DNA of 64,000 bases, from NCBI RefSeq assembly GCF_017656155.1, contig NZ_JACDOH010000010.1, forward strand, positions 1 to 64,000. Direction: 5' to 3'. Shown one piece after another: positions 13,184-16,522 of the stretch (position 1 is its first letter; each line of letters starts with the position of its first letter). A model generated the notes under the pieces. The model did not search any database. It was not told the DNA's origin and saw only the letters and a program-made list of their open reading frames with translations. This stretch comes from Thermosyntropha sp. Lineage in GTDB: Bacteria; Bacillota; Syntrophomonadia; Syntrophomonadales; Syntrophomonadaceae. The position numbers and the translations under genes are program-made.

Positions 13184-13304
13184 GGGACTCCTCCGTTAAT
13201 TTAATATTTTGTAATATTATACCAGGTTTTTGCCAATTAAACTTTGCTCTCGAAAAGATAGAAAAAACCCAATTTCTTTGCTAAAATTTAAATATAAAAA
13301 TTAC

Positions 13305-13410
13305 ATAAAACATCTTCGAGCTGTGGAATCTAAAGGCTTATGCCCATGATTTGCAGCCGATGGGTTAGATGAGAAATTGTCTAGCCTCCCGTGTTTGGAA
13401 AGAAGATGGT
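13305..13410 (+). ncRNA. structured leader RNA, candidate molybdenum/tungsten-cofactor (Moco/Tuco) riboswitch
   Basis: The tungstate transporter operon has a long leader. An outer stem pairs CATCTTC (13311-13317) with GAAGATG (13402-13408). Inside, ATCTAA pairs with TTAGAT and CCCAT with ATGGG around a 12-base loop, followed by an unpaired stretch with GCCTCCCG and GGAAAG. A further hairpin (AAGCT...AGCTT) and a strong intrinsic terminator follow before the first gene. Aptamer, expression platform and terminator in front of a Mo/W transporter is what the Moco/Tuco riboswitch class does. The class call rests on context and fold; I did not match the full published consensus. Confidence 0.5.
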
Positions 13411-13449
13411 TAACAAGCTCAAGCGATAAGCTGGAGCTTAGATCTTTTT

Positions 13450-13474
13450 AGACACGGCAGACCGTGTCTTTTTT
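13450..13474 (+). terminator. intrinsic terminator in the tungstate operon leader
   Basis: AGACACGG and CCGTGTCT form an 8-bp stem with a CAGA loop, followed directly by a run of T. It lies 134 bp before the wtpA start and can act as the OFF state of the leader. CCGTGT also occurs in the upstream folded region (13389-13394) and could compete for the 5' arm. Confidence 0.85.
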
Positions 13475-13607
13475 AATTTACAGGATAAAGGAGAGCCAGG
13501 CATTGCCCGTTTTGGTATTCCGGTAAATCAATATCAGGTTGGGGGTGGGAAAAAATTAAAAAGTAACTAAACTACACCAATAAATTCGTAAGGAGGTTTC
13601 TTTGACA

Positions 13608-14627
13608 ATGTTTAAAAAAAATTGGTTTGTAGCTGTTCTTATGCTGGTCTTTTTAATATTCACCCTGGGCGGCTGTGGAGCAGACCAGAGTGATAAAAAA
13701 CCTGCAGAAAATGAAAACTCCAAAGATCTTAAAGGTGAACTCATCATTTATCATGCCGGCAGTCTTACTATTCCCTTTGCAGAACTGGAAAGAAAATTTG
13801 AAGCCCTGCATCCCAATGTAGATATTAAAAGAACCGCGGGGGGAAGCCGCAAGATTGCCCGCCAGGTTGCCGAACTTGGAGACAAGGTGGATATTTTAGT
13901 ATCGGCTGATTATACCGTCATCGACAATCTTTTGATACCGGATTATGCCAAATGGAATGCCTGGTTTGGTAAAAATTCCATGGTCATTATGTATACTGAC
14001 AACAGCAAATATGCGGACGAAATTAACTCTGACAACTGGTATGAGGTGCTGCTCAGAAAAGGCGTAAATTACGGGCACAGCGAACCTAATATTGATCCAT
14101 GCGGGTATAGAACCGTTCTGGTATGGCAGTTAGCGGAAAAATACTATAAACAGGATGGTTTGTTTGAACGCCTGAGCAACTCCTGTCCGGCAAACAATAT
14201 CCGTCCCAAATCGGTTGAGCTTATCTCCCTGCTGGAAAGCGGAGCTTTAGACTATGCTTTTGAATATGAATCGGTTACCCGGCAACATGCTTTAAAAAAT
14301 CCCAAATTTAAATGGATAGAGTTGCCGGAAGAAATAAATTTAAGTTCGGTAAATCACAGCGAATTTTATAAAAACGCTTCTATCGACCTTAATGGTGCGG
14401 AACCGGGACAAATCATAACTAAGGTTGGCGAACCTATTGTTTACAGTCTTACCATGCCGACTACAGGCGAAAACAAAGAACTGGCCGTTGAGTTCTTAAA
14501 GTTCTTCTTTAACAAAGAACAGGGACTTAAAATACTTCAAGACAACGGGCAGCCCGTTCTCGACAAAGTCACGGTTACCGGTGAAGAAAACCTGTCGGAA
14601 GAACTTAAACCTGTCCTTTTAAAATAG
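13608..14627 (+). CDS. wtpA: tungstate/molybdate-binding lipoprotein (WtpA/ModA-like)
   Basis: The ATG at 13608 (339 residues) follows AAGGAGG; an in-frame TTG 6 bp earlier is the only alternative. A signal peptide ends in a lipobox (FTLGGCG), so it is membrane-anchored outside. YHAGSLTIPFAELERKFE and TAGGSRKIARQVAEL correspond to the two Ser-containing oxyanion-contact loops of WtpA. VSADYTVID, NIDPCGYRT and ALDYAFEYES follow the archaeal WtpA pattern, where an Asp and a Glu complete octahedral oxyanion binding. That ligand arrangement is known from archaeal WtpA/ModA and is applied here by similarity. The next two genes encode the matching permease and ATPase. Tungstate uptake suits anaerobes using W-dependent formate dehydrogenases or aldehyde oxidoreductases. 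Confidence 0.88.
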   Translation: MFKKNWFVAVLMLVFLIFTLGGCGADQSDKKPAENENSKDLKGELIIYHAGSLTIPFAELERKFEALHPNVDIKRTAGGSRKIARQVAELGDKVDILVSADYTVIDNLLIPDYAKWNAWFGKNSMVIMYTDNSKYADEINSDNWYEVLLRKGVNYGHSEPNIDPCGYRTVLVWQLAEKYYKQDGLFERLSNSCPANNIRPKSVELISLLESGALDYAFEYESVTRQHALKNPKFKWIELPEEINLSSVNHSEFYKNASIDLNGAEPGQIITKVGEPIVYSLTMPTTGENKELAVEFLKFFFNKEQGLKILQDNGQPVLDKVTVTGEENLSEELKPVLLK

Positions 14628-14723
14628 CTGCTCCTATTTTCAGGTAATATACGGCAGCAAGCCGGCCGCTTGTTGCCTCTTTTCCTTTTATATAAGAAAT
14701 TTAACATGCCGGGGAGGATAAAA

Positions 14724-15518
14724 ATGCTGAATAAAAAAACCGAGCTCCTGTTTGTAATATCACTATTTACCGGTGCAATTATCCTTCTATTCATCACGTA
14801 CCCGATAATCAATACCTTTTCCCTGACTAAGCCGGCTCTTATCCTGGAAGCACTGCAGGACAGGGAAGTTTTACAGTCTATATATATAAGCATGGGAGCA
14901 GCCGCTATAACCACTTTTATTTCATTTTTGCTGGGAGTCCCCTTTGCCTATTTTCTGGCTCGAAAAGATTTTAAAGGAAAAAGCCTGATAGAAAGCATTA
15001 TCGATGTCCCGATAGTAATCCCTCATACCGTGGCCGGCATATGCCTTTTAACCGTCTTAAGTCCGCGCTGCTGGTTTGGGCGTATGCTGACCAATTTGGG
15101 CATAGAAGTCTTGGGAACAATCGCAGCTATAGTCATTGCCATGACCTTTGTCAGCATGCCCTTTTTGATTAACACGGCCAAAGAATCGTTCAAATGGGTT
15201 TCACCGCGTTTGGAAAACGTATCCCGAACCCTGGGAGCAACCCATGCCCAGACCTTTTTCCTGATTACTTTTTCTCTATCCTGGAGAGATATTTTAGGAG
15301 GAATGATTCTTACCTGGGCCCGGGCTATAAGCGAGTTTGGGGCAGTAATTATTCTGGCTTACCACCCTATGATAGCCCCTACCCTGATCTATGAAAGGTT
15401 TACCTGTTATGGCATGATATATGCCGTTCCGGTAACAGCAATATTGATTATAATTTCATTGATTATCTTTATAATCTTAAGAATAATTGCTTCCGGCAGG
15501 AAGGAGGAAATTTTTTGA
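14724..15518 (+). CDS. wtpB: tungstate/molybdate ABC transporter permease
   Basis: 264 residues from the ATG at 14724, chosen because GGGGAGG lies 8-14 bp upstream; an upstream in-frame TTG at 14670 lacks such a site. Six hydrophobic helices are visible. The cytoplasmic coupling loop is well conserved: ENVSRTLGATHAQTFFLITF continuing to WARAISEFGAVIILAYHP, the EAA-loop region of ModB/WtpB/CysT-type permeases. It forms the membrane channel with WtpA outside and the ATPase inside. The 96-bp gap after wtpA holds no obvious terminator, and the gene overlaps the ATPase gene by 4 bp, so all three should be co-transcribed. Confidence 0.9.
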   Translation: MLNKKTELLFVISLFTGAIILLFITYPIINTFSLTKPALILEALQDREVLQSIYISMGAAAITTFISFLLGVPFAYFLARKDFKGKSLIESIIDVPIVIPHTVAGICLLTVLSPRCWFGRMLTNLGIEVLGTIAAIVIAMTFVSMPFLINTAKESFKWVSPRLENVSRTLGATHAQTFFLITFSLSWRDILGGMILTWARAISEFGAVIILAYHPMIAPTLIYERFTCYGMIYAVPVTAILIIISLIIFIILRIIASGRKEEIF

Positions 15519-16522
15519 TCGAAGTAAAGGACCTTTCCCTAAAAGCGGGCAATTTTAGGCTTAACAGCATTAATCTTACCATCAATACAGGTGAATTTTT
15601 CGTTCTATTAGGCCCTACCGGAAGTGGTAAAACCGTCCTTTTAGAGGCTATTGCCGGTCTAAAACCTTTAAACAAGGGAAAAATAATTATAAGCGGCAAG
15701 GATGTAACCGACAAGAAACCGGAAAAACGCAAAATAGCAATATGTTACCAGGACTATGCGCTTTTTCCCCATATGAAGGTAAAAGATAATATCACCTATG
15801 GACTAAGGTTTCAGCAAGATGGGAATAAGCTGAAATATCAGGAAAACTTTGAACTCTTAGTAAACCTGTTAAAAATTGAACATATCCTTGACAGATATCC
15901 GCTGTTTTTAAGCGGGGGAGAAAAACAGCGGGTGGCTTTGGCCAGGGCTTTAATTACCGACCCGGATGTTCTCCTGCTGGATGAGCCCCTTTCGGCGCTT
16001 GATGCAGGTATAAAGGAAACTATAGAATATAAGATGAAAAAACTGCATCAGACTTTAAAAACCACCACCATTATGGTTACCCATAATTTTCGGGAAGCCT
16101 ATTATTTAGCTGACAGGGTGGGAATAATAAAAGGAGGAAACATCCTGCAAACCGGCTCGGTTGAAGAGATTTTCTGCCATCCCAAGTCGCTTTTTGTAGC
16201 TGATTTCGTAGGCATGAAAAACTTGTTTAAAATCGAAGACATAAAAAATACCTTTCCTCTGGAGCTTGAAAGCAAGGCTGGCTATCTTGGAATCAGACCG
16301 GAGAACATCTTTATCAGCGATAAACCTGTAAAAGATGCCTACTGTTTTAAAGGCAGGATAATAAACTTCATAAATAACGGGGTCTATATGCAGATTGATA
16401 TAGAAAGCCAAGGGTATATTTTTACTTCTTATCTTACTCACAATCATTATTCTCAGCTGAACCTGACAGAAGGAAAAGAAGTATTTTTTGGGTTTTATCC
16501 CAAATACATGTGCCTCATTTAA
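15515..16522 (+). CDS. wtpC: tungstate/molybdate ABC transporter ATP-binding protein
   Basis: 335 residues from a TTG start overlapping the permease stop (TTGA), preceded by GGAGG. Walker A is GPTGSGKT near residue 33, the Q-loop is YQDYALFPHM, the ABC signature is LSGGEKQRVALARAL, Walker B is DVLLLDEP and the H-loop is MVTHNF. After residue 235 a beta-rich C-terminal extension (LGIRPENIFI, FKGRIINFINNGVYMQIDIE) resembles the TOBE/MOP-type regulatory domain of molybdate and sulphate importers, which can bind the oxyanion and inhibit transport. It is the last gene of the operon; a hairpin without a T-run follows. Confidence 0.9.
   Translation: MIEVKDLSLKAGNFRLNSINLTINTGEFFVLLGPTGSGKTVLLEAIAGLKPLNKGKIIISGKDVTDKKPEKRKIAICYQDYALFPHMKVKDNITYGLRFQQDGNKLKYQENFELLVNLLKIEHILDRYPLFLSGGEKQRVALARALITDPDVLLLDEPLSALDAGIKETIEYKMKKLHQTLKTTTIMVTHNFREAYYLADRVGIIKGGNILQTGSVEEIFCHPKSLFVADFVGMKNLFKIEDIKNTFPLELESKAGYLGIRPENIFISDKPVKDAYCFKGRIINFINNGVYMQIDIESQGYIFTSYLTHNHYSQLNLTEGKEVFFGFYPKYMCLI

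Follow-up and report, generated by a model that had tools for sequence, protein, structure and literature searches.

The DNA analysed here, called the window throughout, is a stretch of 64,000 nucleotides from a Thermosyntropha sp. contig. On its forward strand, directly 3′ of a structured leader, lie three genes in the order wtpA, wtpB and wtpC. The product of wtpA (13602–14627), a tungstate-binding lipoprotein, exceeds the cut-offs of two NCBIfam models (NF003196, 376.7 bits against 355; TIGR03730, 328.8 against 242.75). For the permease gene wtpB (14670–15518) and the ATP-binding protein gene wtpC (15515–16522), the best matches are NF040839 (tungstate_WtpB, 291.9 bits, cut-off 340) and NF040840 (tungstate_WtpC, 338.4 bits, cut-off 440); both scores lie below the cut-offs, and these two genes were assigned from operon context. 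The WtpABC-type operon that had been proposed from the letters of the sequence is recognised by WtpA family membership and by its gene order, the features it shares with known wtpABC tungstate transporters, whereas WtpB and WtpC of the window fall under the curated cut-offs, as would be expected of diverged members. A Shine-Dalgarno sequence, AAGGAGG, was read at 13590–13596 (+). The listed start codon of wtpA is TTG at 13602, and an ATG at 13608 is compatible with the same Shine-Dalgarno sequence. A consensus scan also found a promoter-like sequence at 13259–13287 (+), with TAGAAA and TAAAAT separated by 17 nt and a TG ahead of the second hexamer; only its position recommends it, because the number of consensus matches is at chance level.

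When the window was searched with cmscan, the leader matched RF01055, the Rfam Moco model, at 13302–13421 (+) with 73.6 bits, twice the gathering cut-off of 36 (E 6.8e-16). The alignment covers the full model, positions 1–135 of 135, and RF01055 was the sole Rfam family to reach its gathering cut-off anywhere in the 64 kb. The elements that the earlier note had picked out fit this assignment. The outer 7-bp stem is P1, in which CAUCUUC at 13311–13317 pairs with GAAGAUG at 13402–13408; its inner pairs are CUCC/GGAG in most relatives, a compensatory change. The inner two-part hairpin (about 13320–13358) consists of P2 and the inner stem of P2, and the joining segments GCCTCCCG and GGAAAG span 13384–13401. 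P4, in the same domain as P2, occupies 13362–13387 (+) and carries a GAAA tetraloop at 13373–13376. The CUAA..AUG receptor core is kept in P2, and a tertiary contact between this core and the GNRA tetraloop is predicted. The leader continues beyond the aptamer through a terminator to about 13475, so that the range first proposed for it, 13305–13474, fits. In the window RNA the model columns for P3 are gaps, with 3–4 nt in place of 15–25.

Compensatory changes in homologous leaders, which the earlier note had suggested looking for, were found. Ninety-five P3-less members, drawn from the genome of the window and from related genomes, were aligned: 24 of the 32 pairs showed two-sided changes and all five helices were 81–98% paired; 90% of the cells were paired in register, against 35–49% when the partners were slid by 1–3 columns. 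Of 200 dinucleotide shuffles, 197 folded less stably than the aptamer (z −2.8). The leader RNA almost certainly belongs to the RF01055 Moco/Tuco class, and the window RNA is an additional member of an already known riboswitch family, of the P3-less sub-type.

The 3′ segment of the aptamer, CCGUGUUUGGAAAGA at 13389–13403 (+), which shares bases with P5, with the joining segment and with part of P1, is complementary to UCUUUUUAGACACGG at 13443–13457 (+) over 15 contiguous base pairs. The downstream strand of this putative antiterminator covers the entire 5′ arm (13450–13457) of the strong intrinsic terminator already noticed in the letters, a hairpin at 13450–13469 with an 8-bp stem and a 4-nt loop, followed by six U residues up to 13475. 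Enclosed by the antiterminator is a linker hairpin, AAGCUC...GAGCUU, at 13415–13439 (+). When the downstream strand was shuffled 5000 times, a stem of 15 bp arose once. For an RNA ending before the terminator 3′ arm, the antiterminator fold has a calculated energy of −57.7 kcal/mol, against −45.7 kcal/mol with the aptamer enforced, ligand binding being outside these energies; in the full-length RNA the predicted fold contains the terminator. The competition between the two folds holds at 55–65 °C, the temperatures to be expected for Thermosyntropha, and the 15-bp stem is slightly re-registered at 60–65 °C.

This arrangement points to a simple mechanism. At low levels of the pterin cofactor, most likely its tungsten form, the RNA would fold into the antiterminator as it is made, and transcription would enter wtpABC. 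When the cofactor is abundant, its binding would hold P1, P5 and the junction closed, so that the 5′ arm of the terminator would be left free; the terminator would then form, transcription would stop, and tungstate uptake would be off. The pairing is read directly from the leader, and the effect of ligand that it implies makes OFF control of wtpABC very likely; hardly less likely is the fuller reading, that a P3-less Moco/Tuco riboswitch turns off wtpABC through transcription termination.

The absence of P3 bears on which metal form of the cofactor is sensed. Regulski et al. 2008 split the family according to the presence of P3 and associated the P3-less RNAs with tungsten-cofactor genes; as set out in the main text of that founding paper, the distinction between Moco and Tuco is a correlation rather than a matter of binding (PMC2408646). 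We examined 143 RF01055 RNAs, for which gene types were labelled from representative members of protein clusters. P3 was absent before all 22 TupA/WtpA-type genes sampled (18 TupA-like and four WtpA), whereas it was present before 7 of 11 ModA genes and absent before the other four (Fisher p 8e-5, kinship ignored). P3 was present before 4/4 MoeA genes. In the counted clusters, none of the RNAs before the 25 formate dehydrogenase or related genes or before the 15 hydrogenase genes had P3. The genome itself encodes one tungsten-type aldehyde ferredoxin oxidoreductase homologue (530 bits), known here from its sequence, and several molybdopterin oxidoreductases, two of them with an in-frame TGA. 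We consider it probable, though well short of certain, that the window RNA prefers the tungsten cofactor.

The strongest alternative is that the same RNA family, working by the same OFF mechanism, senses Moco or both metal forms, and that loss of P3 is a trait of the lineage. This is a minority reading with some force. P3-less RNAs predominate irrespective of the gene (114 of the 143), and in this order they also precede MoaA genes as well as the four ModA genes mentioned above; in the E. coli RNA, as the founding paper reports, deletion of P3 left specificity unswitched (PMC2408646). Against it stands the partition of the TupA/WtpA-type and ModA genes by P3 state. Lineage alone is moreover insufficient to account for that pattern, because genomes such as G005, G022 and G035 hold RNAs of both P3 types. 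The tungsten preference thus stays the favoured reading, and the earlier suggestion of a tungsten-sensing variant draws indirect support from the absence of P3, the gene-type association and the aldehyde oxidoreductase homologue; the ligand preference itself is what we infer from them.

The reverse polarity, in which bound ligand would promote read-through, is improbable for this leader. The arrangement such an ON switch would use is seen in some formate dehydrogenase-cytochrome b leaders of related genomes (motifs 27, 132 and 135), in which a complement of the aptamer is followed directly by a run of U. In the window, however, the terminator stem uses no aptamer bases, and the alternative pairing occupies the 5′ arm of the terminator. 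That the leader is a new motif merely resembling Moco RNA, or a chance fold beside a terminator, is a reading for which no supporting point was found and which can be set aside, given that the whole model is matched at twice its curated cut-off and that covariation runs across the family.

OFF control is thus retained for the wtp leader of the window. RF01055 RNAs were also found just 5′ of wtpA in five genomes of the window's order (G018, G019, G022, G035 and G040), and ahead of a wtp-like operon in G011. At the partial wtpA matches of G029, where one of two pieces was scanned, and at a distant wtpA match in G048, no RF01055 RNA was found. Four close orthologous wtp leaders (G018, G019, G022 and G035) retain the complementarity, the aptamer's CCGTG being matched by a stretch with CACGG at the hairpin further 3′; the platforms have otherwise diverged from that of the window, and in G018 the best complement and the terminator are less clear than in the window.

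Across the leaders surveyed, the hexamer CTTTCC, which is complementary to the conserved GGAAAG, is over-represented in the platforms: it occurs in 11 of 105, where shuffles gave 1.9 ± 1.4. When duplexes were compared with shuffles in a rough test, 12 of 110 leaders reached p ≤0.05 (p 0.009). That signal is weak, and we therefore dropped the claim that all RF01055 leaders surveyed are OFF switches. The generalisation that formate dehydrogenase leaders are ON and hydrogenase leaders OFF was also rejected: most formate dehydrogenase leaders are ambiguous or OFF-like, and only three, from two genomes, are ON-like. Two formate dehydrogenase leaders, L044 (G005:C197) and L132 (G034:C8), have a complement of the aptamer 3′ side followed directly by 7–9 U residues, which would be an ON arrangement.

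As Regulski et al. describe it in their main text, the P3-less group of RF01055 shares with the window aptamer its sequence, its P1-P2-P4-P5 architecture, the GAAA tetraloop on P4, the lack of P3, the tungstate-transport gene context and the downstream terminator, and the window aptamer has no feature that sets it apart from that group; the fully readable 15-bp antiterminator is a detail beyond the description given there (PMC2408646). With the E. coli moaA Moco riboswitch, again as presented in that text, it has in common the aptamer family and predicted OFF control by the cofactor (PMC2408646). The E. coli RNA contains P3 and is proposed to mask the ribosome binding site (PMC2408646), whereas the window RNA is without P3 and uses a transcription terminator.

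The genome of the window carries three further RF01055 RNAs, one before a moaA-moaC-MOSC-mog gene group and the other two as a tandem pair. The pair (L005, G000:C12, 9248–9554, minus strand) precedes an operon encoding a short [FeFe] hydrogenase, which scores above the TIGR02512 cut-off, together with a cytochrome b and a small subunit that has a TAT signal. Among the 61 genomes searched, an RF01055 RNA lay 5′ of the short hydA at 14 of 19 assessable loci, in tandem at more than half of those. At 20 loci from named records, a set that overlaps with these 19, the count was 15, against 0/20 in controls; the records with the RNA include Syntrophomonas wolfei subsp. methylbutyratica, S. zehnderi and Desulfosporosinus sp. 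Tol-M. An RF01055 RNA before the short hydA is recurrent in most Syntrophomonadaceae holding the gene. RF01055 RNAs were absent 5′ of more distant hydA genes in two sets, of 10 loci and of the 20 control loci just mentioned, and were absent from the short hydA locus of T. lipolytica. At this locus G001, a relative of the same genus, has DNA identical to that of T. lipolytica DSM 11003, offset by 3 bases, so that the window most likely represents a different Thermosyntropha, in the family Syntrophomonadaceae.

Tandem pairs before the short [FeFe] hydrogenase operon were seen across several genera (L036, L066, L048, L103, L120, L129 and L200). At L197, in Desulfosporosinus sp. Tol-M, the two tandem copies are identical and both have P3; because its hydrogenase operon has P3-containing RNAs, the hydrogenase link extends beyond the P3-less type. 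A divergent intergenic region (L129, G018:C37, 2870–4147) holds six RF01055 RNAs, two directed toward a hydrogenase and four toward a formate dehydrogenase. A P3-containing RNA lies ahead of nuoE/nuoF-like genes at L028 (G009:C105) and L084 (G027:C126), and in G009 a longer hydA follows just 3′ of these genes, suggesting a trimeric hydrogenase operon. The hydrogenase leaders also hold a second conserved element, CAATCCCAATCTTTTTCTTCCCGCTT followed by a terminator-like hairpin CCCGCTT...AAGCGGG, at L005 (downstream of 9248, minus strand), L036, L066, L103, L120 and L201 (near 2880); it had no Rfam match in the loci scanned, and it occurs in T. lipolytica too, there without RF01055 RNAs.

In four genomes (G002, G016, G031 and G034) a hypA-hypB-[NiFe] hydrogenase operon is preceded by a P3-less RNA. 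At three of four such loci (L126, L133, L118 and L105), terminator-loop stretches of the AGCATTTCC type are complementary to the aptamer segment GGAGATGCT. Two hydrogenase leaders have a 17-nt terminator stretch complementary to the conserved 3′ side of the aptamer, which fits OFF control.

In the literature we searched, no Moco RNA was described ahead of a hydrogenase, and the word 'hydrogenase' is absent from the main text of the founding paper, as distinct from its supplementary alignments (PMC2408646). As co-occurrence the link between RNA and hydrogenase is strong; the role of the RNA there is what we infer from it. The arrangement suggests that cofactor supply may also control a hydrogenase that works without Mo or W. 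A caution comes from Pelobacter carbinolicus, in which tungsten altered the activity of formate dehydrogenase and left that of hydrogenase unchanged (PMC4275255).

RF01055 RNAs number up to 19 per genome in our survey of the Syntrophomonadaceae, and other genes were seen behind them. A protein of about 250 aa (cluster c15) comes first behind P3-less RNAs at five loci (L097, L110, L104, L078 and L134); for the one member scanned, no NCBIfam match was found. At L037, L049, L059, L042 and L082, the RNAs precede genes for large proteins that are secreted or lie at the surface and that look, by eye, fibronectin-like or S-layer-like; a cofactor switch would not be expected to act on such targets.

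These observations can be joined in a wider proposal, which we put forward tentatively and regard as doubtful. In the Syntrophomonadaceae, Moco/Tuco RNAs, mostly P3-less and often in tandem, might control [FeFe] and [NiFe] hydrogenase operons that are independent of Mo and W, the readable platforms being OFF-like and a few formate dehydrogenase leaders ON-like. If Tuco ran short, electrons might then be disposed of as hydrogen instead of formate, and the wtp leader would be the uptake arm of the regulon. Control of B12-independent isoenzymes by B12 riboswitches offers an analogy for such a cofactor-gated hydrogenase.

The leader in the window is a clear-cut case of the P3-less sub-type that lends itself to testing, with a tungstate-specific transporter, a defined terminator and a 15-bp antiterminator. 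Such an example has value because the founding paper, in its main text, offers no direct ligand evidence for this sub-type (PMC2408646). The less expected result is that close relatives of this RNA stand before hydrogenases, often paired, in the same family; this association is the part that specialists would want to pursue, and the OFF platform of the window is unusually legible. The survey shows that these syntrophs rely heavily on RF01055 RNAs, and raises the question, in a matter long debated in syntrophy, of whether it is tungsten supply that determines which carrier, formate or hydrogen, takes electrons to methanogens.
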